The position numbers were made by a program, and so were the translations under genes. The notes below the pieces were generated by a model. The model was not told the origin of the DNA. It made no database searches and was given only the letters and a program-made list of their open reading frames with translations. Positions 3,835-36,461 of a DNA stretch of 36,461 bases are shown in pieces. Origin of the DNA: Thermus igniterrae ATCC 700962. GTDB lineage: Bacteria > Deinococcota > Deinococci > Deinococcales > Thermaceae. Each line of letters starts with the position of its first letter. The first letter of the stretch is position 1. The stretch is from positions 1-36,461 of the forward strand of contig NZ_AQWU01000052.1 of NCBI RefSeq assembly GCF_000376265.1, written 5' to 3'.

Positions 3835-4394
3835 GACCCTGGCCTACGGCCTTCCCCGGCTGGGGCCCAACCGGGAGTACAAGAGCCTGCTGGAGGGCTT
3901 CTGGGGGGGACGGATGGACCGGGAGGCCTTCCTGCAGGGCCTGGAGAGCCTGGAGGCCCTGCGGCTTGCGGCCTACGGGGCCCATGTGGACTTCTACCCC
4001 GTGGGGGAGATGAGCCTTTACGACCCCCTCCTGGATCTGGCGGTCATGGTCGGGGTCTACCCCGTGGACCCCCAGGACCTCGAGGCCTACTACCGCCTGC
4101 CCCTGCGCAAGTGGTTTGTCCAGCGCACCGGCCGCCCGTCAGGATCCCCGCTTCCTCGAGGCCCTCTCCGACCTGGAGGTGGACGTAGGACCGGGGGCCT
4201 TCGACGTCCACACCCCTCTCCTCCTCACCCCCGGGGAAATCCAGGCTCGTCTCCAGGCCTATGCCCAACACATCCCCCCTCGCCGCCTTTGGGTCAACCC
4301 CGACTGCGGGCTCAAGACCCGGCGCTGGGAGGAGGTGGCCGCGGCCCGGGCCCTGCGGGCCCAATGGGAGGGAAGGGATGCTGAGGGAGCCTAG
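3824..4394 (+). pseudogene. metE: metE remnant (cobalamin-independent methionine synthase), internally deleted and frameshifted
   Basis: The first ~105 codons (frame of ATG 3824) match the start of MetE: LAYGLPRLGPNREYKSLLEGFW, then HVDFYPVGEMSLYDPLLDLA, ending near LRKWF, which aligns with the TKWF region of the intact enzyme. At about 4120-4130 the match jumps in another frame (+1) to the extreme C-terminus: FLEALSDLEVDVGPGAFDVHTPL and RRLWVNPDCGLKTRRW, ending at TAG 4392-4394. Roughly 550 of about 750 residues are gone, including three of the four zinc/homocysteine ligands; only the last Cys (in NPDCGLKTR) remains. The enzyme normally makes methionine from homocysteine and methyl-tetrahydrofolate triglutamate without B12, so its place behind a B12 riboswitch is classical. 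It cannot be functional. The tail overlaps nrdB by 17 bases. Confidence 0.92.
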
Positions 4395-5346
4395 GTCCCA
4401 CTACCGGCCCTACCAGTACCCCGGGTTCCTCCGCTTCCGGGACGCCATCCGCCACAGCTACTGGGTGCACACGGAGTTCAGCTTCGCCGCCGACCTCCAG
4501 GACTACGCCCTTTCGGGGGAGGAGGTCCGTTCCCTGGTGCGCCGGGCCCTTTTGGCCATCGCCCAGGTGGAGCTCTCCGTGAAGCTCTTCTGGGCCCGGG
4601 TTTATGAGGTCTTCCCCAAGCCCGAGGTGGCCGAGGTGGGCATGACCTTTGCGGAAAGCGAGGTACGCCACGCCAACGCCTACGCCCACCTTCTGGACCT
4701 CCTTTCCCTGGAAGCCCTATTTCCCAAAGCCCTGGAGGAACCAGCCCTGAAGGACCGGCAACACCTCCTCTCCCAGGTGCTCCAGCGCTCCCGCCAGCAG
4801 GAACCCAGGGACTACGCCATGGCCCTCCTCCTCTTCTCCGCCTTCACCGAGCACATCTCCCTCTTCTCCCAGTTCTACGCCCTCATGGCCCTGAACCGCA
4901 GGGAAGGCCTCTTCAAGGGCATCTCCAACGCCATAGAGGCCACCAGCAAGGAGGAGAACATCCACGGGCTCTTCGGGGTGGAGCTTTTGCGCCTCTGGCG
5001 GGAGGAGGAGCCCCACCTCTTCGGCCAGGCCTTCGCCGAGGAGGCCCTGCGCTTTGCCCAGGAGTTCTATCGGGCCGAGGAGGCCCTCCTGGAATGGATT
5101 TTCGCCGGGGGGGAGCCCAAGGCGGTGGGCTTCGCTGAGACCCGGGAATTTCTTAAGAGCCGCTACAACCAAGTTCTGGCCCTCCACGGGCTACCCGAGC
5201 CCTTTCGGGTGGACAGTGACCTCCTCAGGGACACGGAGTGGTTCCAGCTGGAACTCCTGGCCGACAAGGAGGTGGACTTCTTCAACAAGCGGAGCGTGGC
5301 CTATGCCCGCAGGGTGCAGGGCTACGATCCGGAGGACCTTTTCTAG
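4378..5346 (+). CDS. nrdB: Class I ribonucleotide reductase, small (radical-generating) subunit NrdB
   Basis: A 322-residue ferritin-like protein that houses the dimetal site and initiates the radical used by NrdA for NDP reduction. Candidate metal ligands follow the R2 pattern: E65 (in QVELSVKLFW), E95 and H98 (in SEVRHANAY), E158 (in FTEHISLF), E193 and H196 (in KEENIHGLFG). Y102, four residues after H98, occupies the position of the radical tyrosine, so a tyrosyl-radical enzyme is likely rather than a Phe-bearing class Ic. The first ligand is Glu instead of the Asp of E. coli. The ATG at 4378 is preferred: a GGGAGGGAAGG site precedes it, whereas the longer in-frame extension runs over the metE remnant. 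It overlaps that remnant and is followed nine bases later by nrdA. Confidence 0.92.
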   Translation: MLREPRSHYRPYQYPGFLRFRDAIRHSYWVHTEFSFAADLQDYALSGEEVRSLVRRALLAIAQVELSVKLFWARVYEVFPKPEVAEVGMTFAESEVRHANAYAHLLDLLSLEALFPKALEEPALKDRQHLLSQVLQRSRQQEPRDYAMALLLFSAFTEHISLFSQFYALMALNRREGLFKGISNAIEATSKEENIHGLFGVELLRLWREEEPHLFGQAFAEEALRFAQEFYRAEEALLEWIFAGGEPKAVGFAETREFLKSRYNQVLALHGLPEPFRVDSDLLRDTEWFQLELLADKEVDFFNKRSVAYARRVQGYDPEDLF

Positions 5347-5354
5347 GGGGAAGC

Positions 5355-7028
5355 ATGCTTCGCACGAAGGAGCGCACATACCAACCCTGGTACTGGGTTA
5401 ACGAGTGGACGCGGCTCTACATGCGTCGGGGCTACCTCCTCCCCGGGGTGACGGTGGAGGAGCGGGTGCGGCAGATCGCCGACCGGGCCGAGGCCCTCAC
5501 GGGGATCGAGGGTTTCTCCCAGAAGTTCCAGGCTTACATGGCCCGGGGGTGGTACTCCCTGGCCACCCCCATCTGGGCCAACTACGGTCTCAGGCGGGGC
5601 CTGCCCATCTCCTGCTACGGTACCTACGTGGAGGATGACACCGCCTCCATCCTGAAGGCGGTGGCGGAGATCGGCATGATGAGCAAGCAGGGTGGGGGCA
5701 CTTCCGTCTACCTGGGGTCCCTCAGGCCCCGGGGAGCCCCCATCCGGGACAACGGGGAGAGCAACGGCTCCTATGCCTTCGCCTCCCTCTTTGACCGGGT
5801 TATAGAGGTCTTCAACCAGGGCTCTACCCGCCGGGGCCAGTGCGCCGCCTACCTCCCCATAGAGCACCCGGACTTCTGGGAGTGGCTCCGCATACAGCGG
5901 GAGAACTCGGAGGTCCAGTCCCTCTTCTGGGGGGTTTCCGTGGGGGATGAGTGGCTTGAGGCCATGGTGGCTGGGGACCGGGAGAAGCGGGAGCGCTGGG
6001 CGGCGGTTTTGAAGAGTCGGGCGGAGGTGGGCATTCCCTACCTCTTCTTCCGGGACAACGCCAACCGCCAGGCCCCTGAGGTGTTCAAGCGGCTCGGGAA
6101 GACCATTTGGGCCAGCAACCTCTGCACCGAGATCATGCTCCCTTCGGATCCCGAGGAAAGCTTTGTCTGTTGCCTCTCCTCCCTCAACCTCCTCCACTTT
6201 GACGAGTGGAAGGACACCGATGCGGTGGAGACCCTTACCATCTTCCTGGACTCCGTCCTGGACGACTTCATAGCGAAGGCGGAAGGCATCCCCTACCTGG
6301 AGCGAGCCGTGCGCTTTGCCCGGCGCTACCGGGCCATTGGGATCGGAGTTTTGGGCTGGCACAGCTACCTACAGTCCAAGGGAATTCCCTTGGAGAGCAC
6401 GGAGGCCCTCCTTCTCAACAACCTCATTTTTAAGACCATCCGAGAAAAGGCAGAGCTGGCCTCCAGATGGCTCAGGGAGCGCCACCCCGAGGACGAGCTG
6501 GCCGAGGTCATGGAGCGGCGCAACGCCACCCTGCTGGCGGTGGCCCCCACCAAGTCCAGCGCCTTCATCCTGGGCCAGGTCTCCCCCTCCGTAGAGCCCT
6601 ACATGAGCAACTACTACCTCAAGGACCTGCAGAAGGCCCGGGTGCCCTTCAAGAACCCCTTTCTGGAGGAGCTCCTTCGGGAAAAGGGCAAAGATGAGGA
6701 AAAGGTGTGGCAAAGCATCCTGGAGCATAACGGCTCCGTGCAGCACCTGGACTTCCTCAGCGAGGAGGAGAAGGCGGTCTTCAAGACCTTCGCCGAGGTT
6801 TCCCAAAAGACCCTGGTGAACCTGGCGGCGGGGCGGCAGCGGTACATTGACCAGGGCCAGTCCCTGAACCTGGTGATTCACCCGGAGGCCCCACCCAAGG
6901 ATGTGAACGAGCTCGTTCTCCACGCCTGGCGCTCGGGGCTTAAGGCCCTCTACTACCAGTTCAGCCAGAGTGCGGCCCAGGCCTACAGCCGCGACCTCCT
7001 CCTTTCCTGCCGGGCCTGTGAAGGGTAG
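5355..7028 (+). CDS. nrdA: Class I ribonucleotide reductase, large catalytic subunit NrdA (short form, no ATP cone)
   Basis: A 557-residue catalytic subunit that reduces ribonucleoside diphosphates to deoxyribonucleotides with NrdB. Active-site residues are visible: C87 in LPISCYGTYV, the N255-x-C257-x-E259 trio in SNLCTEIML (radical cysteine finger loop), and C272/C273 in FVCCLSSLNL. The YY pair in LKALYYQFSQ is the radical-transfer pair, and C552-x2-C555 at the extreme C-terminus (SCRACEG) is the redox shuttle for thioredoxin or glutaredoxin. The protein is about 200 residues shorter than typical NrdA (about 760) and starts close to the catalytic barrel, so the N-terminal ATP-cone used for overall activity control is absent. 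The ATG at 5355 follows GGGGGAAGC; an upstream in-frame extension only overlaps nrdB. Confidence 0.92.
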   Translation: MLRTKERTYQPWYWVNEWTRLYMRRGYLLPGVTVEERVRQIADRAEALTGIEGFSQKFQAYMARGWYSLATPIWANYGLRRGLPISCYGTYVEDDTASILKAVAEIGMMSKQGGGTSVYLGSLRPRGAPIRDNGESNGSYAFASLFDRVIEVFNQGSTRRGQCAAYLPIEHPDFWEWLRIQRENSEVQSLFWGVSVGDEWLEAMVAGDREKRERWAAVLKSRAEVGIPYLFFRDNANRQAPEVFKRLGKTIWASNLCTEIMLPSDPEESFVCCLSSLNLLHFDEWKDTDAVETLTIFLDSVLDDFIAKAEGIPYLERAVRFARRYRAIGIGVLGWHSYLQSKGIPLESTEALLLNNLIFKTIREKAELASRWLRERHPEDELAEVMERRNATLLAVAPTKSSAFILGQVSPSVEPYMSNYYLKDLQKARVPFKNPFLEELLREKGKDEEKVWQSILEHNGSVQHLDFLSEEEKAVFKTFAEVSQKTLVNLAAGRQRYIDQGQSLNLVIHPEAPPKDVNELVLHAWRSGLKALYYQFSQSAAQAYSRDLLLSCRACEG

Positions 7029-7125: not shown

Positions 7126-7626
7126 ATGCTGATGGGGCAGAAAGCTGCTAGTCCCATAATTGGGAATTGGGCCTTGCAGGAGCGATGGAAGGCCTATAAG
7201 AGGCGCAAGACGGTGGGCTTCTACGGGCAAAAGCGCCATCTGCTGAAGGTACGAGCCTAGCTACTCCAGTACAAGGGCATCCACCAGGACCCGAACGTTT
7301 TGGGCCTTGCCCACTCCCATGCGGCCAAGGGAGTGCTGGATGCGGGCTGAGCGCAGTTTCTGGCCATCCTCGCCTACAAAGCGGAGGCTCACCGCGTAAG
7401 CGGTAGCGTTCTGGCTGGTAGGCAGGTCATCGGATTTGACCCTAGGCGCATGAGCCAGGGCTACTCCGTATGCAGCCACTAGGATAAGAGGCCTCTATGA
7501 ATCAGGGAGTACGCCTGCTCCGGGTGTGGGACGCCCTTTCACCGGGATGTGGCCGCGGTGGGAAATGTCCTGGCAAGGGTTCAGGCGGAGCCTTCGGCTA
7601 TGGGCTCGGCGCTGGCCGCTCCCTAA
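7126..7626 (+). pseudogene. TnpB/OrfB remnant (IS200/IS605 or IS607 family), internally deleted with in-frame stops
   Basis: One continuous frame carries pieces of TnpB in the right order. GNWALQERWKAYKRRKTVGF (encoded from 7168) is the TnpB N-terminal YNWAL..R..AY pattern. A TAG follows at 7258-7260; then comes IHQDPNVLGLAHSHAAKGVLDAG-stop-AQFLAILAYKAE, matching the EDLNVKGM...LAKSI.DAGWGQF..ILEYKA region, and FDPRRMSQGYSVCSH, matching VDPRYTSQTCSRCGH. Finally CSGCGTPFHRDVAAVGNVLARV (Cys codons from 7516) is the zinc ribbon and third RuvC motif. Stops lie at 7258, 7348, 7480, 7498 and 7624. About 200 central residues, including the first RuvC Asp, are missing, and the catalytic Glu has become Gln. 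The gene is dead. Ends of the element are not identified. Confidence 0.85.
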
Positions 7627-7700
7627 TGACCGAGAAGCCTCGGGCTGAAGCTCGAGGAGTCGTCACGGAATCGCTAGAGCAGCATAGATAAAATCACCGT

Positions 7701-10700
7701 ATGGAAGCCCATGGTCGCTTGGCTCAAGCCTTGAAGCTCTTTGCCGATGCCATGAAGCCTTTCCTCTTGGAAACGCTAAAGCACGCCCATGGGGAGGGGC
7801 GGGGCTGGGTGGAGGCCTATCTGGCTTCCTTGAGTGAAAGCCGTCGCGAGCTGGTTCTGGAAGAAATGAAGCGGGGCCGGTTAGCCGAGGAAACCTTGGA
7901 CCTAAACCACTTTAAGGACATCATGTTGGGACAAAAAGAAGTCCTTCGGGAACGCTTTGGCCGCAACTACAACCGGGCCGTTACCTGGGCCGATGAGATC
8001 AGCGAGGTACGCAACAAGTGGGCTCACCAGGAGTTCATTCCCGAAGAGGATGTAAACCGCGCCATGGACAACATGGTCCGGCTCCTGAAGCTCATTGGGG
8101 CTGAGGAGACGGCCCTTCAGGTTCGGGGTTTGATGGCGGAATTCGTACCCAAGGCCTCTCAAGGAGGCTTACCCCCTTGGTGGAAGCTGGCCCAACCCGA
8201 TGAGGCCATACGGCGAGGAGATTTTGACGAGAATACCTTTGCCGCCAAGCTGGACGACGTGGTGGCCGGTTGGGCTCCTGCAGAATACCAGGAGGCCCGG
8301 CGGTTTTTCCAAAAGACTTATCTCACCCGTGAGCTCAAGGCTATCCTCAAGGACACCCTGCGGCGGATTGTGGGGTTGGGTGGCGAAGCAGTGGTGCAGC
8401 TCCGCACCCCTTTCGGCGGCGGCAAGACCCATGCCCTTATCGCCCTTTACCATCTGTTTCGGGCTCCTGAGGATCTCCTGGGGTTGGCCGAGGTCCGGGC
8501 CCTTGTGGAGGAATCTGGTGTGGGTGAAGTGCCCCAAGCACGGGTGGCGGTGCTGGTGGGTACGGCCCTTTCGGCCCAGGGACGCAAAGTGGACGGACTT
8601 CATCTTCGCACCCTTTGGGGGGAGCTGGCCTATGGCCTTGGGGGTAAGGCCGGCTATGAGTGGCTTCGGACTGCAGATGAAGCCCTGACCTCTCCCGGCA
8701 AGCAGGCTCTGGCCGAGTTTCTAAAGGCCCATAGCCCTGCCCTCATCCTCATGGACGAGATTCTGGTTTATCAGGTTAAAGCCGCTTCGGTGAGGGTAGG
8801 GGAGACCACCCTTCAGGCCCAGACCTTTGCCTTTTTGCAGGAACTGAGCGAGGTGGTGGGTAGCCTGCCCCAGGTGGCCCTGGTCACCACTTTTCCCGAG
8901 TCCCACCTGGAGTACTACGATCACCACGAGGCTCCCCAGGTTTTTGCCCGCCTGGAGAAGATCTTTGGCCGGGTCCAGGCGGTGCGCATGCCGGTGCAAG
9001 GGGAGGAGATTTATGAGGTCCTTCGGAGGCGGTTGTTTGAGCAGATAGACGGCGAAGGGGCCAAGAGGGTGGTGGCTGCCTACATGGAAACCTACGAGGC
9101 CTACAGGAATGAGCTGCCCCCAGAGGTGCGTAGCGGAGAATATGCCCGCAAGATGCTCAAGGCTTTTCCCTTTCACCCCCAGTTGGTGGATGTGCTTTAT
9201 GAGCGCTGGGGCACACTACAGAACTTTCAGCGTACCCGGGGAGTGCTGCGCCTTTTGGCCCGGGTGGTGGAGGCCGAGTACCTAAACCCTGGGGCCCGGC
9301 CCCTCATTGGGCTAGGGGATGTGGCCCTGGCCAACCCGGACCTGCGGGCCACGGTGGATAGCGTTTTGGGCGAGGCCAATTGGGAGTCGGTGCTGGCCTC
9401 CGACATCATCCCCCCCGATGGCAAGGCCTACCGGTTGGATCGGGAGCAGGGGGGTGAGTACGCCCGTCACCGCTTGGCTCAGTCCTTGGCCACCGCCATC
9501 TTCATGTACTCCCATTCCGGCGGGGCCCAACAAGGTGCCACCCGCCCCCAGCTCAACCTGGCTCTGACTTACCCTGAAGGGATCACGCCCCTTCTGGTTG
9601 GGGACGCCTTGGGTCACCTGGAAAAGCGGCTTTACTACCTTTACGCCAACGGGGGATGGTCCTTTAAAGCCCAGCCCAATCTGAATGCGGTGCTGGCCGA
9701 CCGGATGGCCCAGGTGCGGGAGGAGGCCATTGAGGAACGTATTCGGGTTCAGGTGGAGGAGGTGGTGGGTAAGGGGCCTTTTAGGGTGTACGTCTGGCCC
9801 CAAGACCACCGGGAGGTGCCAGACCAGCCCCACCTTAAGCTAATCCTCCTGGGACCTGAAGCCTTCCATGACGACCAGGCGGCTTTGGAACGCACCTACC
9901 GGATGCTTCAGGACAACCACGCCTCTGGGCCAAGAATTTACAAGAATACCACCCTTTACCTGGCCATGGCTCGGGCTCCCTACCTGCGGGCCCAGGAGGC
10001 TGCCCGCAAGCTTTTGGCCCTCGAGGACATCCATGCCGACCGGGGCCTCATACTTTCCGAAGACCAGAGGGCCGAGCTGGCCCTTCGCCTCAAAGAGGCC
10101 CGTGAGGCCCTACCGGCCCTGGTCAAGGCCAGCTACACAGGAATGCTGGAACCCATGGACGCTAAGGGGAGCTACCGCTTCTTTGACCTCTCCCCCCATG
10201 CCAAAACCCAACCCACCCTCCAGGAGGCGGTGGAGAAGGTCCTGAGGGACGAGGACCACCTCTTAAGCCGTCTGGATCCTACGTATTTGCTCCAAAGCGG
10301 GCTCTGGCCTGAGGGTGAACCCTATCTGAGTCTGAGGGATTTGCGGGAGCATTTCCTGCGCCTACCCCACCTTCCCTTTTTAGAAAAAGAAGAGGCTTTG
10401 AAGGAGGCCGTGGTGCAGGGGGTGCGCATCCATCTCTTTGAACTTGGGGTAAGACGGGATGGGGGGTTTGCCCAGGTCTGGGATGCGCAGAACCCCCCTC
10501 GTCCGGAAGAGGTCTTTTTTAGCGAGGCTTACCTGCTGGCGAGGCCTGGGGTTCTGCCCAGGCCTGAGGCTACCCAAGCCAAAGAGCCCCAGCCTTCTCC
10601 CGTTCCCCAGGTGGTAGGGAAACCAGCTCCAACGCCCCCGCCTTCCCCACGCCTCAAGGTGAGACAGGTTCGGGTTGTTCTGGACCCCTTGGAGCTTAAG

Positions 10701-10877
10701 CGGGTTCCCATCCTGGTGGACCTGGCTAAAGCCCTCCAGGACGCTGGGGGCCAGGTGCGGTTGCGGGTGGAGGTTTGGGCGGAAAACCCCACTGGTTTGA
10801 ACGAAACCCTTCTCTCTACCTCTGCACGGGAAATCCTGGACCAGTACGGATTTGACTACACTTGGGAGGAGGAGTAA
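7701..10877 (+). CDS. HEPN + DUF499 P-loop ATPase, defence-operon ATPase subunit
   Basis: A 1058-residue protein with an N-terminal Swt1/HEPN-like helical domain (about 1-150) and a DUF499-type AAA ATPase body. The HEPN motif R104-N-K-W-A-H109 in SEVRNKWAHQEF fits the R-x4-H ribonuclease signature. The P-loop is P237-FGGGKT243; Walker B is ILMDEILVY (about D351-E352). DUF499 features continue (TTFPESHLEYYD, FPFHPQLVDVLYERW, QRTRGVLRLLARV). Residues about 930-970 form a Pro-rich linker before a small C-terminal domain (about 975-1058). ATPases of this family sit beside DUF1156 methylases in defence islands. The ATG at 7701 is used; no good Shine-Dalgarno is seen, and an AT-rich TAGATAAAAT lies about 12-20 bases upstream and could be a -10 region. 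The helicase gene follows three bases after its stop. Specific function is inferred from the family and operon. Confidence 0.85.
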   Translation: MEAHGRLAQALKLFADAMKPFLLETLKHAHGEGRGWVEAYLASLSESRRELVLEEMKRGRLAEETLDLNHFKDIMLGQKEVLRERFGRNYNRAVTWADEISEVRNKWAHQEFIPEEDVNRAMDNMVRLLKLIGAEETALQVRGLMAEFVPKASQGGLPPWWKLAQPDEAIRRGDFDENTFAAKLDDVVAGWAPAEYQEARRFFQKTYLTRELKAILKDTLRRIVGLGGEAVVQLRTPFGGGKTHALIALYHLFRAPEDLLGLAEVRALVEESGVGEVPQARVAVLVGTALSAQGRKVDGLHLRTLWGELAYGLGGKAGYEWLRTADEALTSPGKQALAEFLKAHSPALILMDEILVYQVKAASVRVGETTLQAQTFAFLQELSEVVGSLPQVALVTTFPESHLEYYDHHEAPQVFARLEKIFGRVQAVRMPVQGEEIYEVLRRRLFEQIDGEGAKRVVAAYMETYEAYRNELPPEVRSGEYARKMLKAFPFHPQLVDVLYERWGTLQNFQRTRGVLRLLARVVEAEYLNPGARPLIGLGDVALANPDLRATVDSVLGEANWESVLASDIIPPDGKAYRLDREQGGEYARHRLAQSLATAIFMYSHSGGAQQGATRPQLNLALTYPEGITPLLVGDALGHLEKRLYYLYANGGWSFKAQPNLNAVLADRMAQVREEAIEERIRVQVEEVVGKGPFRVYVWPQDHREVPDQPHLKLILLGPEAFHDDQAALERTYRMLQDNHASGPRIYKNTTLYLAMARAPYLRAQEAARKLLALEDIHADRGLILSEDQRAELALRLKEAREALPALVKASYTGMLEPMDAKGSYRFFDLSPHAKTQPTLQEAVEKVLRDEDHLLSRLDPTYLLQSGLWPEGEPYLSLRDLREHFLRLPHLPFLEKEEALKEAVVQGVRIHLFELGVRRDGGFAQVWDAQNPPRPEEVFFSEAYLLARPGVLPRPEATQAKEPQPSPVPQVVGKPAPTPPPSPRLKVRQVRVVLDPLELKRVPILVDLAKALQDAGGQVRLRVEVWAENPTGLNETLLSTSAREILDQYGFDYTWEEE

Positions 10878-10880
10878 GCC

Positions 10881-13800
10881 GTGGATGGGCAGGCCCTTTT
10901 GGACCAGGTGGTGGAAGCTCCCTTCTGGCCCGAACCGGTGCGGGTCTTGCGGATTGATCCCGAGGGGGGCCGCTTCCACCTGGTAGCTGAAGGGCTGGAA
11001 AGCCAAAAGGTTTACCGTCTCCTTCTAGACGAGGAGAAGGTGGCCCAGCTTCTGGGGAGCCTCGGGGCCAAGGCGCCCCCCTTCGCGGGGGATGGCGAGC
11101 TCCTGGCTCTGGGGGTGGAAGCCCGGCGCATCCGGCTTGGCTACCTCTTTGACCCCTTCTTTGCCGTTTCGGCCAGCCGCATAGACCCCCTGCCCCACCA
11201 GCTCGAGGCCGTGTATGGGGTCCTCCTCAAGAAGCCCCGGGTGCGCTTTCTCCTGGCCGACGACCCTGGCGCGGGCAAGACCATCATGGCTGGGCTTCTC
11301 CTGAAGGAGCTCAAGTACCGCGGGGTGGTTTCCCGAACCCTCGTCGTGGTGCCGGCCAACCTTACCGACCAGTGGCGCCGGGAGCTCAAGGAGAAGTTCG
11401 GGGAAACCTTTGAGGTGATGAACCGCGAGGGGGTGGGGGCCCTGTACGGGGAAAACCCTTGGCTCAGGCGTAGCCAGGTCATCACCAGCCTTGACTTTGC
11501 CAAGCGGGAGGAAAACCTCCGCCTCTTGGAGCAGGCCCACTGGGACCTGGTGGTGGTGGACGAGGCCCACAAGCTTTCAGCCACCCGGTATGGCCTGGAG
11601 GTGAAGAAATCCCAGCGTTACCGCCTGGGCGAGGTCCTCTCCCGCCAGAGCACCCACATGCTCTTCCTCACCGCCACCCCCCACCAGGGGGACGAGGAGA
11701 AGTTCCGTCTCCTTCTGGACCTTCTGGAACCCCAGCTTTTCGCCAACACGGCCCTTCTGCAGGAAGCCGCCCAGAGGGGGGAGAACCCCATCCTGCTCCG
11801 CCGCCTCAAGGAGGACATGACCGATTTTGAGGGCAAGCCCCTTTTCCCGCCCCGCTACGTGCATACCTTGGCCTTCCGGCTCTCCCCCAGCGAGGAGATG
11901 CTCTACCAGGAGGTGAGTGATTACGTGGCGCGGCACTTCAGGCGGGCCTGGGACCAGGGGCGGCGCAATGTGGGCTTGGCCATGGCGGTCTTGCAGCGGC
12001 GGCTGGCCAGCAGCACCTACGCCATAGCCCAAAGCCTGGAGAACCGCCGGAAGCGGCTGGCTGCTTTGCGGGAGCAGGTGCTTAAGCTACAGGAAAACTC
12101 CCAAGGCGAGCTTGGCGAGGAGGAGCTGGAGGAGCTGCCCGAGGCGGAGCGCTGGAAGCTGGAGGACGAGCTGGTCGAGCGCCTTACCCTGGCCCGGAAC
12201 TTGCCCGAGCTGGAGGAGGAGCTGGCCCAGCTCGAGGCCCTGGCCAAGAAAGCCCGAACCCTGGCCCGGTTGGAGGACGACCGCAAGCTGCAAAAGCTTC
12301 TTGAGGTGCTACATAGCCTCCAGGGGGAAAAGCTACTGGTTTTTACCGAGCACAAGGCCACGCTGGAGTTTTTGGTGGGGGTCCTACGGAAGCGGGGCTA
12401 TGCTGTGACCTCCATGGACGGCTCCATGAGCCTCGAGGAGCGGGTCCAGCGGGAGCGGGAGTTCCGCGATAGGGCCCAGGTCATGGTGGCCACGGAGGCC
12501 GCGGGGGAGGGTATCAACCTGCAGTTTTGCGCAGTGATGGTCAACTACGACCTCCCCTGGAACCCCACCCGCCTGGAGCAACGCATGGGCCGGGTACACC
12601 GCTACGGTCAGCGCTACGACGTGCACGTCTACAACCTGGTGGCGGAGAACACCCGCGAGGGCAAGGTGCTCCAGGTGGTGCTGGACAAGCTGGAGGCCAT
12701 GCGGGCTCAGATGGGCTCGGACCGGGTCTACGACGTGGTGGGAGAACTTCTGGCGGACGTGAACCTCGAGGACCTAATCCTGGCCCACCTGGCTGGCCGC
12801 AAAACCCTGGAGGAGATCCGGGCCATGGTGGAGGCCCGGCTTTCCCCTGAGCGGCTGGAGTTCATCCGCAGGGTTACCCTCGAGGCCCTGGCCAAGAGGG
12901 AGCTGGACCTTTCCCGCCTTCGCCAGGAAAAAGCCCGTTCGGAGGAGCACCGCCTGCAGCCCGAGTACATCCAGCGCTTCTTCGTGCGGGCCTTGGGCCG
13001 CCTGGGGGGGAGTGTCCAGCGGCGAGGGGATGGCCTGTTCCGGGTGAGCGTGCCTCACCACCTCCTGCGCAAGCAGCCTGGGGTATTGGTCCGGGAGTAT
13101 CCCCGGGTTGTCTTTGACCCCAGGGCCCGCCTCGAGGCGGAACTTATCGCCCCGGGCCACCCCCTCTTTGACCAGGTACTGGAAGAGATTCTGGCTCAGT
13201 CGGCCCCGGTTCTGCGCCAGGGTGCTACCTTCCTCTATGACGGTGAGCGGGAAGGAGTGCTGGGCTACCTGGAGCTGGCCGTAGTGGATGGACTGGGCCA
13301 GACAGTAGCCCGGCGCCTTTTCGCTCTCCTGATGGACGGGGAAAGGGTCTGGCAGGTACCTCCCGAGCTTTTGGTGGATGCCGAGCCCACCATACCTCCC
13401 CAACATCCTCTGCCTTCCCCCAAGGAGGTGGAAGGAAGGTTCCTTGAATGGGCTTACCAGCACCTTGTGGATGCTTTTTTTCAAAGCGTGCTGGCGGAGC
13501 GGACCCAGGAGGTGGAGATCCGGCGCAAATATGCGCAAAAGAGCCTGGAGTTTCTCATTGCCGAATCCGCCAAAAAGCTCACGGAGTACAAGTTAAAAGG
13601 AGACGAGGCCATGCGCCTCGCCATCCAGCAGGAGGAGCGCCGCTTAAGGGAGCTGGAGGAGCGGCAAAGAACCCTGGAAATGGATCTGAAAAAAGCCCTA
13701 TCCCTGAACCCTGAACCCGCTCAGGTGGTAGCCCTGGCCTACCTGTACCCCCGTTCCCTGGGTTTACCCGACGAAGAAGACCCTGAGGTGCGCCAGCGCG

Positions 13801-14153
13801 TGGAGGAAGCGGCCATGCAGGTGGCCATGGCCTACGAGCGCAAGGAGGGGCGGAACCCGGTAGATGTGAGCCAGGAGAACCTGGGCTATGACCTTCGGTC
13901 TGAGGGGCGCTTTATAGAGGTCAAAGGCCGGGCCGGGGTGGGGCCGGTGGTGCTCACCCCCAACGAGTGGATTGCCGCCCGGCGGCTTGGGGCCCGGTAC
14001 TGGCTTTACATCGTGACGGGGGCCCTCACCAGTCCACGCCTGCACTTGATCCAAGACCCGGCGGCCAGGCTCAAGCCGGGGGAGGAGGTGCAGGTGGTGC
14101 GGTATGTGGTAGACCAGGAGGAGTGGCAGCGACATGCGGAGGTTGTTAGATGA
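10881..14153 (+). CDS. SNF2-type helicase with C-terminal DUF3883 (DISARM DrmD-like)
   Basis: A 1090-residue superfamily 2 helicase/translocase. Motif I is DDPGAGKTIMAGLLLKEL (about 126-143), motif II is VVVDEAHKLS (DEAH about 227-230), motif III is LFLTATPHQGDEEKF. A charged helical insert (about 395-470, many Glu, Leu, Arg and Lys) separates the two RecA lobes; the second lobe has LLVFTEHKATLEFL, VATEAAGEGINLQF and RLEQRMGRVHRYGQ (about 485-580). The C-terminus (about 985-1060) has the DUF3883 pattern NLGYDLRS..RFIEVKGRAG..V.LTPNEW, which resembles a restriction-endonuclease-like fold. The order helicase then DUF3883 is that of DrmD of class 1 DISARM. The start is GTG at 10881 behind a GGAGGAG site overlapping the upstream stop; the end shares ATGA with the methylase, so all three are coupled. 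Confidence 0.9.
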   Translation: MDGQALLDQVVEAPFWPEPVRVLRIDPEGGRFHLVAEGLESQKVYRLLLDEEKVAQLLGSLGAKAPPFAGDGELLALGVEARRIRLGYLFDPFFAVSASRIDPLPHQLEAVYGVLLKKPRVRFLLADDPGAGKTIMAGLLLKELKYRGVVSRTLVVVPANLTDQWRRELKEKFGETFEVMNREGVGALYGENPWLRRSQVITSLDFAKREENLRLLEQAHWDLVVVDEAHKLSATRYGLEVKKSQRYRLGEVLSRQSTHMLFLTATPHQGDEEKFRLLLDLLEPQLFANTALLQEAAQRGENPILLRRLKEDMTDFEGKPLFPPRYVHTLAFRLSPSEEMLYQEVSDYVARHFRRAWDQGRRNVGLAMAVLQRRLASSTYAIAQSLENRRKRLAALREQVLKLQENSQGELGEEELEELPEAERWKLEDELVERLTLARNLPELEEELAQLEALAKKARTLARLEDDRKLQKLLEVLHSLQGEKLLVFTEHKATLEFLVGVLRKRGYAVTSMDGSMSLEERVQREREFRDRAQVMVATEAAGEGINLQFCAVMVNYDLPWNPTRLEQRMGRVHRYGQRYDVHVYNLVAENTREGKVLQVVLDKLEAMRAQMGSDRVYDVVGELLADVNLEDLILAHLAGRKTLEEIRAMVEARLSPERLEFIRRVTLEALAKRELDLSRLRQEKARSEEHRLQPEYIQRFFVRALGRLGGSVQRRGDGLFRVSVPHHLLRKQPGVLVREYPRVVFDPRARLEAELIAPGHPLFDQVLEEILAQSAPVLRQGATFLYDGEREGVLGYLELAVVDGLGQTVARRLFALLMDGERVWQVPPELLVDAEPTIPPQHPLPSPKEVEGRFLEWAYQHLVDAFFQSVLAERTQEVEIRRKYAQKSLEFLIAESAKKLTEYKLKGDEAMRLAIQQEERRLRELEERQRTLEMDLKKALSLNPEPAQVVALAYLYPRSLGLPDEEDPEVRQRVEEAAMQVAMAYERKEGRNPVDVSQENLGYDLRSEGRFIEVKGRAGVGPVVLTPNEWIAARRLGARYWLYIVTGALTSPRLHLIQDPAARLKPGEEVQVVRYVVDQEEWQRHAEVVR

Positions 14154-16912
14154 GTTCTCTTAAAACTATGAACCCTGAGCGCCGCCTAATAGAACATCGT
14201 CTACCCCTCAAGGAAATCTCGGAAGCCTCGGCCCGGGAAAAGTCCATCCGCCACGGGCATATCTCCACCCTGCACATCTGGTGGGCCCGGCGCCCGCTGG
14301 CGGCAAGCCGGGCCGCGGTGTTTGCCACGCTGGTGCCCGACACCGACGAGAACTACGAGCTGGTTAAGAGGATTGTTCCCTGGGAGGCAGTTAAAGACGG
14401 CAACAACCCGGACATCCTGGAAGCCCGCCGTAGGGTGCTGGAGGCCAATGGCGGCCAGCCTCCCAGGGTGCTGGACCCCTTTGCCGGGGGTGGAGCCATT
14501 CCCCTCGAGGCCCTGCGCCTGGGTTGCGAGACCTACGCCCTGGACCTGAACCCCGTGGCCTACCTGATTCTGAAGGCTACCCTCGAGTACCCCCAGAAGT
14601 ACGGCCAGCCCGAAAGCCGTCCCGTGCCGGAGTACATCCGGCAAAGGGATAGGGAAGCCTGGTCTCAGGAAAAGCAGAGGCCCCTCCTTTCTGGAGAGGG
14701 GGAGTGGGTGCAGTCCTACCGCAAGAACCCCCTGGCCACCGAGGTGCGCTACTGGGGCGAGTGGGTGCTGGAGCGGGCCAGGGCCGAGCTGGCCGAGTTT
14801 TATCCCCAAGACCCCGATGGCAAGACCCCCGTGGCCTACCTCTGGGCCCGCACCGTTACCTGCACCAACCCCGCCTGCCGCGCCGAGGTGCCCCTGGTGC
14901 GCCAGTGGTGGCTGGCCAAGAAGGACAAAAAGCGCATTGCCCTAAGGCCGCTGGTCAATGAGGCCACCAAGACCATCTCCTTTGCGGTGGAGGAGGTGGG
15001 AAAGGGCGAGGAGTGGCCAGAAAAGGGCACCATTGAGCGGGGTGATGCCACCTGCTTGGTTTGTGGTTCGGCGATTCCTTCATCCGAGATCCAGCATCAG
15101 GCTAGAGAAAAACGGTGGAAAGAGCGACTTTTGGCGGTCATTCTGGGTAGCCAGGATGAAAACGGTAAGACATACCGACCAGCCACATCAGATGATGAGG
15201 CTTCTTTTGAAAAAGCCAGGTTGAAGCTGGATGAGCTCAAGCATGGGGAGAATCTATTTAGCGAGCTTCCTTTGATTCCCGATGAGCCCATTCCTTACGA
15301 GCCTCGAGCCTTCACGCCTTGTATCTATGGTTTTGAGCAATGGGGCCAGCTCTTCAACCCCCGCCAGGCCCTGGCCCTGGTCACCTTTGCCAAGTGGGTG
15401 CGCGAGGCCCATGCCGAGATGTTGCGGCGGGGGATGGAGGAGGAGTGGGCTCGAGGGGTGGCGACATACTTGGCTTTCAGCTTAGACAAGGTTGTTGACT
15501 ATTGTTCTTCTTTGTGTCGCTGGGGCAATGATGATGAAGGTGTTACAAACACCTTTGGTAGACAAGCGCTTCCCATGGTTTGGGATTATGCCGAAACTAA
15601 TCCGATAGGTCTACTTACCGGCAGCTATTCATGGGCACTGGTGTACGAAGTCAAGGTAATTGAACATGTTAGTGGATGGGAGGGGCCTTGTACTGCCCAC
15701 CGCTCCACTGCCACCCGCCTTCCCTTCCCAGACGGCTTCTTTGACGCCATCATCACCGACCCCCCCTACTACGACGCCGTGCCCTATGCCGACCTTTCGG
15801 ATTTCTTCTACGTTTGGCTCAAGCGCACGGTGGGCCACCTTTACCCCGAGCACTTCCGCACCCCCCTCACCCCCAAAAGCCAGGAAGCGGTGCAGAACCC
15901 GGTGCGCCACGGGGGCGACAACCAAAAGGCCAAGCAGTTCTTTGAGGACATGATGCGCCAGGCCTTCCAGGAGATGCACCGGGTGCTCAAGCCCGGGGGC
16001 GAGGCCACCATCGTATTCGCCCACAAGAGCACCGAGGCCTGGGAGACCCTCATCAGCGCCCTCATCCGGGCGGGGTTTCAGGTACAAACTTCCTGGCCGT
16101 TGCATACAGAAAGTAGGGGTCGATTGAGAGCACATAAAGCCGCGGCGCTGGCCTCTTCCACCTTCCTGAACTGCACCAAGCGCTCGGGGGGTGGCGTCGG
16201 CTTCTTCGCCGATGTGCGCCGCGAGATGCAAGAGGCCATCCGCCCCCGGCTTCAGGAGTTCTGGGAGGCGGGCATTCGCGGGGCCGACTTCTTCATGTCG
16301 GCCATTGGGCCGGGGCTGGAGGCCTACAGCCGCTACGACCTGGTCAAGCGGGCCGATGGCCGCCAGGTGGGGGTGGGCGAGTTTCTGGACGAGGTGCGCC
16401 GCATCGTGCTGGAGTTTGCCCTGGAGCAGGTTTTGGGGGCAAAGGCCATGGGCGGGGTGGACGGGCCCACCCAGTTTGCCCTCCTGGCCCTCTGGGCCTA
16501 TGGCACCGAGCTTCCTTCCGACGAGGCCCGCAAGCTGGCCCAGAGCGTGGGGGTAGAGCTTGCTGAGCTCGGTAGCCTGGTGCAGCAAAAGGGGGAGAAG
16601 ACCTTTGTGCGCCTTTCCGCCGAGCGGGCCAAGGATAAGCGCTTGGGAAGGCCAGCAGAGGGCCCCGCGTCCGGCCAGGAGCGTGTGCCCATGATAGACG
16701 CCCTCCACCGCACCCTGCTCCTCCGCCGCGAGGGCAAACAGGCCATAGCCGACTACCTGGAGGAGGTGGGCTACCTGGAAAGCGAGGTGTTTTGGCAGGT
16801 GGCCCAAGCCCTGGCGGAGGTCCTCGAGGGCACTGAGGAAAGCCGCGCTCTCAAGGAACTTCTGGCGGTGCGCCAGGGGTTGCCCAAGCCTGGGAGGTCG
16901 CGGCTTTTCTAG
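14150..16912 (+). CDS. DUF1156-containing DNA methyltransferase
   Basis: A 920-residue methylase. The N-terminus (about 10-65) is DUF1156: RRLIEHRLPLKEISEASAREK followed by HISTLHIWWARRPLAASRAA. The SAM-binding motif I is DPFAGGGAIPLEALRLG (about 109-125) and the catalytic motif is TDPPYYDAVPYADLSDFF (about 536-553), as in amino (N6-adenine or N4-cytosine) methylases. Two Cys pairs, CTNPAC (about 237-242) and CLVC (about 300-303), probably bind zinc. It would mark host DNA, with the helicase and ATPase as partners; target sequence unknown. Base composition is patchy: 15481-15660 is 45% G+C by hand count (81 of 180) against 62% in 15721-15780, and 15061-15180 is about 51%. The ATG at 14150 overlaps the helicase stop. 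Orphan-methylase function is possible but less likely given the operon. Confidence 0.88.
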   Translation: MSSLKTMNPERRLIEHRLPLKEISEASAREKSIRHGHISTLHIWWARRPLAASRAAVFATLVPDTDENYELVKRIVPWEAVKDGNNPDILEARRRVLEANGGQPPRVLDPFAGGGAIPLEALRLGCETYALDLNPVAYLILKATLEYPQKYGQPESRPVPEYIRQRDREAWSQEKQRPLLSGEGEWVQSYRKNPLATEVRYWGEWVLERARAELAEFYPQDPDGKTPVAYLWARTVTCTNPACRAEVPLVRQWWLAKKDKKRIALRPLVNEATKTISFAVEEVGKGEEWPEKGTIERGDATCLVCGSAIPSSEIQHQAREKRWKERLLAVILGSQDENGKTYRPATSDDEASFEKARLKLDELKHGENLFSELPLIPDEPIPYEPRAFTPCIYGFEQWGQLFNPRQALALVTFAKWVREAHAEMLRRGMEEEWARGVATYLAFSLDKVVDYCSSLCRWGNDDEGVTNTFGRQALPMVWDYAETNPIGLLTGSYSWALVYEVKVIEHVSGWEGPCTAHRSTATRLPFPDGFFDAIITDPPYYDAVPYADLSDFFYVWLKRTVGHLYPEHFRTPLTPKSQEAVQNPVRHGGDNQKAKQFFEDMMRQAFQEMHRVLKPGGEATIVFAHKSTEAWETLISALIRAGFQVQTSWPLHTESRGRLRAHKAAALASSTFLNCTKRSGGGVGFFADVRREMQEAIRPRLQEFWEAGIRGADFFMSAIGPGLEAYSRYDLVKRADGRQVGVGEFLDEVRRIVLEFALEQVLGAKAMGGVDGPTQFALLALWAYGTELPSDEARKLAQSVGVELAELGSLVQQKGEKTFVRLSAERAKDKRLGRPAEGPASGQERVPMIDALHRTLLLRREGKQAIADYLEEVGYLESEVFWQVAQALAEVLEGTEESRALKELLAVRQGLPKPGRSRLF

Positions 16913-34467: not shown

Positions 34468-36207
34468 ATGAAGCCTGAACCGCACACCGAAGAAGGACGC
34501 TACCCCTGGTGGCAGGTCCTCTGCCTCACGGGGGTAGACCTCTTTTCCTCCCTAGGGTACCAGCCGGGAATCGCCCTCCTGGCGGCTGGCTTTCTCTCCC
34601 CCCTGGCCAACCTGGCCCTGGTCCTCTTTGGCCTCCTGGCTGTCTACCCCGTCTACCGCCGGGTGGCGGAGGAAAGCCCTCATGGGGAAGGCTCCATCGG
34701 CCTCCTCACCCGGCTTCTCCCAGGGTGGCGGGGGAAACTGCTGGTCCTGGTGGTGCTGGGGTTCATGGCCACCGATTTCGTCCTCACCATTACCCTATCC
34801 GCCGCTGACGCCGCCGTGCACTTTCTGGGCAACCCCCTGGCCCCCGCCTGGCTCCAAGGGCACCAGGTGGGCCTCACCCTCTTCCTGGTAGGCCTCTTGG
34901 GCCTGGTCTTCTACCTGGGCTTCCGCGAGGCCATCCGCCTGGCGGTACCCATTGCCTTGGGCTACCTCTCCCTCAATGCCGTCATTCTCCTGGCCGCTTT
35001 GTCCCATCTCCGGCCAGAGCACCTGGAGGGCTGGTGGCGGCGGCTCCTCGCCAGCCATCCAGACCCCATGGGCCTTCTCCTGGCCATCGCTTTGGCTTTC
35101 CCCAAGCTGGCCCTGGGGCTTTCCGGGTATGAAACGGGGGTGTCGGTGATGCCCCTCATCCGGGGCGGACCCCAGGACACCCCAGCGCGCCCCGTAGGCC
35201 GCATCCGAGGAGCCCACCGCCTCCTCTTGGCCGCTGCCTTGGTCATGGGGGTTTTTCTCCTGGGGGCAGGGTTCGCCACCACCCTCCTCATTCCGCCCGC
35301 CCTTTGGTCCAGCGAGGAGGTCTCCGGGAGGGCCTTGAGCTTCCTGGCCCACCGGTATCTGGGAGAGGGGTTTGGTGGCCTCTACGACCTCTTTTCCATC
35401 GTCATCCTCTGGTTCGCCGGGGCCAGCGCCATGGCCGGCCTCCTCACCATCGTTCCCCGGTACCTGCCCCGCTTCGGCATGGCCCCGGAGTGGGCCCGAA
35501 GGCGGCGCCCCATGGTCCTTTTCTTCACCGGGGTGGCCTTTGCCCTCACCCTCATCTTCCGGGCGGAGGTGGAGGCCCAGGCCGCCGCCTACGCCACGGG
35601 CGTCCTGGTGGTCATGACCTCGGCCGCCTTAGCGGCAACCCTCGTTGCGGCGCAGGAGAAAAAACCTGGAGGCGACTACTACCGCTTTCTCCTTCCCGTT
35701 TTCCTCTATGTGCTGGTGGCCAACGTGCTGGAACGGCCCGATGGGGTGAAGATCGCAGCCTTTTTCATCGCGGCCACCCTCTTTTTTTCCCTCCTCTCCC
35801 GCACCCTGCGCTCCTTTGAGTTAAGAGTGGAAGGCTTCCAGCTGGACGAGATGGCGGAGCGCTTCGTGAGTGAGATGACCGCCCAGGAGGCCCCCATCCG
35901 TCTGGTGGCCCACCGGCCGGAGCGAGGGCGGCGTTGGGTCTACTGGGAGAAGGAGCTCCGCATCCGCGAGGCCACCCACATCCCCCCCGGGGACCCCATC
36001 TACTTCGTGGAGGTTTTCGTGCAAGACCCCTCGGAGTTCACCACCCGGGCCCGGGTCTGGGGCGTGGAGCACCCTGAGGCCAGGGTGTTTCGCATTCTGG
36101 GCACCGCTGCCCCCAACACCCTGGCCGCCTTCCTCCTCTACCTGAGGGACCGGACGGGGCGGAAGCCCCACATCTACTTCCAGTGGTCTGATAAGAAATC
36201 CCCCTAG
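34468..36207 (+). CDS. APC-superfamily permease (amino-acid transporter-like) with C-terminal cytoplasmic domain
   Basis: A 579-residue membrane protein with about 11-12 hydrophobic segments (about residues 15-455), starting WWQVLCLTGVDLFSSLGYQPGIALLAAG, the APC-type broken first helix, followed by ESPHGEGSIGLLTRLLPGW and a helix with FPKLALGLSGYETGVSVMP. The last ~120 residues (LRSFELRVEGFQLDEMAERFV onwards) are a soluble domain. The substrate is not predictable; amino acids or K+ are options. The ATG at 34468 is used because it gives the family-like N-terminus; there is no clear Shine-Dalgarno, and a TTG at 34408 would add 20 residues. A 97-base gap separates it from the ABC genes, with a TATTCT at 34384 as possible -10. 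Confidence 0.8.
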   Translation: MKPEPHTEEGRYPWWQVLCLTGVDLFSSLGYQPGIALLAAGFLSPLANLALVLFGLLAVYPVYRRVAEESPHGEGSIGLLTRLLPGWRGKLLVLVVLGFMATDFVLTITLSAADAAVHFLGNPLAPAWLQGHQVGLTLFLVGLLGLVFYLGFREAIRLAVPIALGYLSLNAVILLAALSHLRPEHLEGWWRRLLASHPDPMGLLLAIALAFPKLALGLSGYETGVSVMPLIRGGPQDTPARPVGRIRGAHRLLLAAALVMGVFLLGAGFATTLLIPPALWSSEEVSGRALSFLAHRYLGEGFGGLYDLFSIVILWFAGASAMAGLLTIVPRYLPRFGMAPEWARRRRPMVLFFTGVAFALTLIFRAEVEAQAAAYATGVLVVMTSAALAATLVAAQEKKPGGDYYRFLLPVFLYVLVANVLERPDGVKIAAFFIAATLFFSLLSRTLRSFELRVEGFQLDEMAERFVSEMTAQEAPIRLVAHRPERGRRWVYWEKELRIREATHIPPGDPIYFVEVFVQDPSEFTTRARVWGVEHPEARVFRILGTAAPNTLAAFLLYLRDRTGRKPHIYFQWSDKKSP

Positions 36208-36217
36208 TCCTCTCCCG

Positions 36218-36223
36218 TAGAAT
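36218..36223 (+). promoter_or_regulatory. -10 element TAGAAT of the transposase gene
   Basis: TAGAAT six bases before the transposase ATG at 36230, again placed for a leaderless mRNA. No -35 is evident. Confidence 0.4.
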
Positions 36224-36229
36224 GGGGCC

Positions 36230-36461
36230 ATGGACCTCGCCAAACACCAACGCCGCCCCCGGCTGCAACTCAAGCTGCAGCATCACCCGGATAACCTTCA
36301 CGCCCTGTACCGGGAAAGCCAAGACCCCATAGAACGCTCCCGCTGGCACGCCCTCTGGCTCCTCGCCACCGGCCACCCCATCCCAAAAGTCGCCCAAACC
36401 CTGGGCTACTCCACCCGCTGGGTCCGGGACACCCTCCACCGCTACAACCAAGGCAAGCCCA
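36230..36461 (+). mobile_element. IS630-type transposase, 5' part (runs off the window)
   Basis: An open frame of 77 codons from ATG 36230 to the window edge. It carries a helix-turn-helix region: PIERSRWHALWLLATGHPIPKVAQTLGYSTRWVRDTLHRYNQG (in overlapping blocks), the usual N-terminal domain of IS630/Tc1-type transposases of Thermus. The catalytic DDE domain lies beyond the window, so completeness cannot be judged. The left inverted repeat should lie in the short stretch 36208-36229 but was not identified. Confidence 0.75.

Follow-up and report, generated by a model that had tools for sequence, protein, structure and literature searches.

A complete Hma-type, BREX-related operon in Thermus igniterrae with a permuted gene order and an empty cassette slot

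Background

Three adjoining genes on a contig of the thermophile Thermus igniterrae ATCC 700962 (NZ_AQWU01000052.1) encode an ATPase, a helicase and a methylase, and the locus raises the question of whether they form a defence system of a known kind, how such a system would work and how it came to its present position. The stretch of DNA analysed here, 36,461 nucleotides of a 2.2 Mb genome, is referred to as the window. An original prediction, made from the letters alone, had read the genes as a coupled defence operon of the Hma kind without drmA/B/C, gained by transfer.

Hma systems were named from their helicase, methylase and ATPase (Payne et al. 2021, PMC8565338). An arrangement of HEPN-DUF499 and SNF2-DUF3883 proteins with restriction-modification (R-M) functions, the Ava_2192-type operon, was presented in 2013 (PMC3710099). 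Hma-type systems have been renamed DUF499-centred BREX-related (BR) systems, the Type-1 domain set of which is that of the window, and HEPN-fused DUF499 was recorded in 1370 taxa and a helicase-fused nuclease in 79% (PMC12839542).

Results and discussion

Identity of the operon

The operon (7701-16912, forward strand) consists of three intact, co-oriented open reading frames (Table 1), with a 3-base gap (TAA-gcc-GTG) between hmaC and hmaA and a 4-base overlap (ATGA) between hmaA and hmaB. The coupling of the genes was thus as predicted, and the predicted domains were recovered by Pfam: HEPN_Swt1 (1e-17) and DUF499 (4e-29) in HmaC, SNF2-rel_dom (9e-23), Helicase_C (4e-27) and NOV_C, or DUF3883 (1e-20), in HmaA, and DUF1156 (4e-24) in HmaB. 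The profile search against PADLOC that had been proposed as a check returned HmaC, HmaA and HmaB as the top models of the three proteins (E 1e-152 to 1e-201), which bears out the name Hma. HmaA matched PDLC00659 at 5.8e-201 (profile positions 65-1131 of 1176), HmaB matched PDLC00661 at 5.8e-154 and HmaC matched PDLC00662 at 1.6e-152 (positions 3-769 of 941). The genes also occur together in sister loci, in agreement with the expected linkage, and drmA/B/C are absent as stated, the operon being limited to three genes between unrelated flanks (ribonucleotide reductase on one side, a DUF255 protein on the other).

With HmaA, HmaB and HmaC all present in one operon, and with a DUF499 protein of BrxC-like core, an N-terminal HEPN domain, a helicase-fused nuclease domain and a DUF1156 methylase recognised by sequence and model, the operon is a complete Hma system, equivalent to the Type-1 BR system of PMC12839542. 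It is therefore an already described kind of system, and its novelty lies in details drawn from its relatives.

Table 1. Features of the operon and its 5' edge (positions in the window)
Feature	Position	Strand	Description
TnpB relic	7170-7667	+	IS200/IS605 orfB-type, degenerate, internally deleted; from DNA matches and three-frame reading
Putative -10 element	7689-7694	+	TAAAAT, 6 nt before hmaC ATG
hmaC	7701-10877	+	1058 aa, ATG start; Swt1-type HEPN, BrxC-like AAA+ ATPase (predicted fold), C-terminal region
hmaA	10881-14153	+	1090 aa, GTG start; SNF2 helicase, C-terminal NOV_C/DUF3883 putative nuclease domain
hmaA-hmaB junction	14150-14153	+	ATGA overlap; slot empty in the window
hmaB	14150-16912	+	920 aa, ATG start; DUF1156 amino-methyltransferase (predicted)
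HmaB hypervariable patch	15470-15724	+	aa 441-525, between motifs I and IV, just before DPPY

Domain architecture of HmaC and HmaA

HmaC begins with a HEPN domain (aa 1-146, RNxxxH with R104 and H109), followed by an ATPase (aa 158-656) with GGGKTH at 239-244 and an acidic pair, D352 and E353; all of these residues are conserved in an alignment of 14 sequences. A sequence search for solved relatives of HmaC found none. The best solved match of its AlphaFold2 model (mean pLDDT 81) was BrxC (Foldseek E 8.9e-5), and VIA-align placed the model on BrxC 9zll with Z 17.0 over 428 residues (rmsd 4.5) and on BrxC 9zdx with Z 15.7, with ORC/Cdc6 lower at 12.6. Since residues 158-656 of the model fall on BrxC from its residue 1 onward, HmaC reads, at the level of predicted structure, as a HEPN domain set ahead of a BrxC-like ATPase. 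The family is said to carry a C-terminal RRM-fold domain on the ATPase (PMC12839542), and aa 989-1056 of the model form a strand-helix-helix-strand pattern at a pLDDT of about 50, a low-confidence prediction. The HEPN domain of HmaC may have a regulatory role instead of acting as an effector.

HmaA carries the motifs GAGKT (130-134) and DEAH (227-230) and ends in the NOV_C domain (aa 974-1057) with D1004, E1013 and K1015, and these motifs and residues are invariant in an alignment of 11 homologues. From knowledge of the family and from the conserved D, E and K, we take NOV_C to be a PD-(D/E)XK nuclease; the C-terminus of HmaA is accordingly described here as a putative nuclease of this class with intact catalytic residues. 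PADLOC models also relate HmaA to the BrxHI and BrxHII helicases. Antiphage activity of a Halomonas Snf2-nuclease is reported by a study cited in PMC12839542.

A hypervariable patch in the methylase

HmaB contains motif I (DPFxGGG, 109-115) and motif IV (DPPY, 537-540) with Cys pairs in between, and both motifs are invariant in an alignment of 11 sequences. A sequence search for its solved relatives gave a weak partial match only and Foldseek by itself returned just generic methyltransferases; the predicted core aligns with Trm11/TrmN amino-methyltransferases at Z 16. The ATGA start of hmaB at 14150 has a good Shine-Dalgarno sequence (GGAGG) and adds six residues which the relatives are without, the homologous start of their genes being at 14168 in the window.

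Compared with the closest copy, that of a Meiothermus (L057), the patch listed in Table 1 is 65% and then 39% identical, between flanking 40-aa blocks of 98-100% identity, and part of it is modelled at a pLDDT of about 40-50. By position and variability we propose it as the target-recognition region, and because it differs even from the closest copy, the target of HmaB has probably changed with respect to that copy. Methylases of Type-1 BR systems have DUF1156 at the N-terminus and carry an internal insert for target recognition, a layout with which the DUF1156 match and the place of the patch between motifs I and IV agree. BREX specificity resides in PglX. By this analogy, and because the closest relative has a divergent HmaB patch but no such difference in HmaA, target specificity would most likely sit in HmaB.

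The copies also record recombination. HmaA of the window is 94% identical to that of L057 (dS 0.37), HmaB 88% and HmaC 80% (dS 1.15). From about aa 300 to 860, HmaC of L057 is 97% identical to that of another copy, L059 (dS about 0.2), whereas both of its ends resemble the window copy; judged by these identities HmaC is a recombinant mosaic. Despite this common core, the HmaB proteins of L057 and L059 have 58% identity over aa 441-480. The HmaC core was rejected as the carrier of sequence specificity: it is unlikely to set the target because the shared core is not paired with the same HmaB patch. Based on seven sequences, we infer that HmaB sets the target and that HmaC is interchangeable in this respect. 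Two copies in which HmaA is almost unchanged but the HmaB patch differs offer a means to establish which subunit sets specificity.

Relatives and gene order

Distant DUF1156 proteins are encoded in 15 of 27 Thermus genomes and distant HmaC proteins in 12 of the 27 (own genome counted in). The best HmaB among the other Thermus is 44% identical, and this Hma subtype is absent from the other sampled members of the genus. Its close relatives are found in Calidithermus chliarophilus, Meiothermus rufus, M. hypogaeus and two more Meiothermus-group genomes. In the HmaC tree the six Thermaceae copies group at a support of 1.0, with an A-B-C-ordered locus from the same order (L100) as sister. All six have the gene order C-A-B, that of M. 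hypogaeus being pieced together from L059 (C-A) and L024 (A then B), whereas A-B-C is the order in all other Type-1-like loci in which it can be read (plasmids, viral contigs, Deinococcota), in a limited sample not corrected for relatedness. More distant, Type-2-like loci form a separate group with the order C-B-A.

The genome itself contains a second, distant Hma set, with hmaA on contig C38 (L099, 434-3823) and hmaB and hmaC on contig C42 (L063, 7221-14788), where a Mutator-family transposase gene adjoins hmaB; the split may reflect disruption or an assembly break. The final 271 bases of the window (36191-36461) match the start of contig C38 at 100% identity, either as a repeat or as a contig overlap. 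Methylases related to HmaB (26-29% identity) are also encoded by the Sulfolobus viruses STSV1 and STSV2 (AJ783769, JQ287645), where they possibly protect viral DNA.

A cassette slot between hmaA and hmaB

The junction between hmaA and hmaB is empty in the window and in L057, which has a gap of 31 bases. In Calidithermus (L022, 8232-9929) and M. rufus (L023, 8230-9928) a slot of ~1.77 kb holds DarTG (DarT: Pfam 1e-61, PADLOC 4.8e-73; DarG 5.9e-130, scored on L023), the DarT of which is 57% identical to that of Thermus phage phiMa. In two further loci (L024, 5226-9933; L056, 8730-13425) a slot of ~4.8 kb holds PsyrT, PsyrA and an AlbA_2/HATPase_c_4 protein (PsyrT 1.5e-238, PsyrA 2.3e-59, scored on L024). 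These comparisons indicate that toxin-antitoxin (TA) modules are swapped into and out of a single slot within the operons of the clade. Among 36 loci in which hmaA and hmaB could both be read, 26 have a gap of more than 300 bases. This number is a ceiling for insertions, since a few of these stretches contain split pieces of hmaA; NYN, PIN, Fic or Septu-like genes occupy the gap in other loci.

A type I R-M system is guarded by the toxin PrrC. By analogy, the slot may be a docking site in which DarTG or PsyrTA would be co-regulated with and restrained by the Hma complex and freed upon phage block, a tentative idea that we regard as doubtful. If it were true, the window would represent the stripped state, with the HmaC-fused HEPN domain as sole guard. 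Sister copies in which one backbone has an empty slot, DarTG or PsyrTA constitute natural experiments on whether such modules depend on the host system.

Embedding of modules in Hma is already known, for example for Septu, from the 'guilt by embedding' work (Payne 2024, as cited in PMC12255303), and the main text of PMC12839542 makes no mention of DarT, RecQ or DprA. No description of the C-A-B order or of the cassette swaps was found in the literature searched. What the present analysis adds is the C-A-B order, the exchange of TA cassettes among the sister copies, the variable patch of the methylase and the predicted BrxC-like structure of HmaC.

In the A-B-C operons of Thermus, the gap between hmaB and hmaC often contains a TA pair and a conserved ~186-aa HTH protein (L065, 3619-4985; L073, 9517-10503; L075, 7158-8924), the C-terminus of which resembles SecB on visual inspection; together these genes may form a toxin-antitoxin-chaperone module.

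Acquisition, insertion site and expression

DNA homology to the Meiothermus copy L057 extends over 7688-16912 (84% over 9.3 kb) and ends at the hmaB stop, with no flank included. Because the operon alone is homologous and the subtype is missing in other sampled Thermus, horizontal gain is supported, although the arguments first offered for it, G+C content and a transposon relic, are not its main support. G+C is indeed lower in the operon (0.56-0.65) than just downstream (0.69-0.75), but it is no sharp marker since the drop already begins upstream, at ~5 kb, within the ribonucleotide reductase genes. The relic at the 5' edge is real and matches two separated parts of multi-copy Thermaceae elements; in one copy of these elements, L170, a TnpB-like reading frame of 385 aa is intact. 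As a vehicle of the operon the relic was set aside, its position being just beyond the 5' end of the shared unit.

In another Thermus (G025, L081), ~11 kb of unrelated genes (cytochrome c, CHAD, a solute-binding protein) lie between the two flanks that border the operon here, and the insertion site is therefore variable. No clean empty site was found among the Thermus examined, the flanks being mostly on different contigs or far apart. The ribonucleotide reductase genes upstream of the operon encode the alpha (NrdE-prime) and beta subunits (5238-7028 and 4261-5346) and are not beside the DUF255 gene in most other sampled Thermus.

The TAAAAT box falls within the left end of the DNA shared with L057. 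Five copies (the window, L055, L056, L057 and L058) have TANAAT-N6-ATG or a close approximation to it, and this -10-like box suggests leaderless transcription of hmaC. Promoter and terminator scans returned nothing beyond shuffled sequence.

Proposed mechanism and alternatives

We consider it likely that the complete Hma/Type-1 BR system acts as an R-M-like defence. HmaB would methylate adenine at a specific site and so mark self DNA; HmaC, the BrxC-like AAA+ ATPase, would assemble on DNA with HmaB and HmaA; and at unmodified sites HmaA, as a SNF2 translocase with a terminal NOV_C nuclease, would cut or degrade the invading DNA. Should restriction fail, the HEPN domain at the N-terminus of HmaC may serve as a second-line RNase that shuts down the cell.

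A non-cleaving, BREX-like exclusion, in which unmethylated DNA is recognised and phage replication blocked with NOV_C a vestigial domain, accords with the BrxC-like fold of HmaC and with the kinship of HmaA to BREX helicases; yet a vestigial domain would hardly need a D/E/K set invariant in 11 homologues and the operon is without PglZ or BrxL, so that we judge this unlikely. Slightly less likely again is a system working mainly by abortive infection, with the HEPN RNase as principal effector and the methylase and helicase as sensors. Residues R104 and H109 are invariant in 14 of 14 sequences and HEPN toxins are known within R-M operons (PMC3710099), but the nuclease domain is equally conserved, and HEPN appears dispensable for the system because many Type-1 BR taxa are without it (PMC12839542).

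That the island is silent or decayed and has no present function is very improbable: it was apparently gained horizontally and adjoins a transposon relic, but its three long frames and motifs are intact, its -10-like box is conserved, and dN (0.032) is far below dS (0.37) between the two closest hmaA copies, those of the window and L057. A class 1 DISARM degenerated by loss of drmA/B/C is barely credible, as HmaA matches DrmD (2.4e-148) less well than the HmaA model, the three-gene set is found again in plasmids, in viral contigs and in other Deinococcota, and DUF499 is, to our knowledge, not a DISARM component.

The operon contributes a thermophilic example of a HEPN-type Hma/Type-1 BR system that is complete and, to all appearances, intact. 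Its heat-stable proteins would suit structural work, since sequence searches returned no closely related solved structure for either the ATPase or the methylase.

Comparison with known systems

Class 1 DISARM resembles the operon in combining a SNF2 helicase of the DrmD kind with an adenine methylase, but the operon is without DrmA, DrmB and DrmC. DISARM was rejected because the HmaA model is the better one and HmaA scores 369.9 against the NCBIfam DrmD equivalog cut-off of 610, and the cut-offs of the other NCBIfam DUF499 and DUF1156 antiphage models were not reached either. Type 3 BREX (BrxC, BrxXI, BrxHII, PglZ) shares with the window the BrxC-like fold predicted for HmaC, and its methylase and helicase are related (PMC12839542). 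In contrast, the window has no PglZ, BrxA or BrxB, its nuclease is fused to the helicase, and a HEPN domain is present. BREX membership was rejected, there being neither PglZ nor any further gene in the operon and the immediate flanks being unrelated metabolic genes.

The DarTG2 module within an E. coli type I R-M operon (PMC12255303) finds a counterpart in the four sister loci with a TA module between genes of a restriction operon, with the differences that the host operon here is Hma, that the slot lies between hmaA and hmaB, and that it is empty in the window. The Hma system as modelled by PADLOC is represented by all three of its genes; the window differs in its C-A-B order from the A-B-C order of the other Type-1 Hma loci examined, and the N-terminal HEPN domain of its HmaC is not covered by the match to the PADLOC model. 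With Type-1 BR and Ava_2192-type systems the window shares the HEPN-DUF499 ATPase, the SNF2 helicase with its C-terminal putative restriction endonuclease domain and the predicted DUF1156 N6-methylase, and it is set apart from them by its gene order, its empty hmaA-hmaB junction and its place in a Thermaceae clade.
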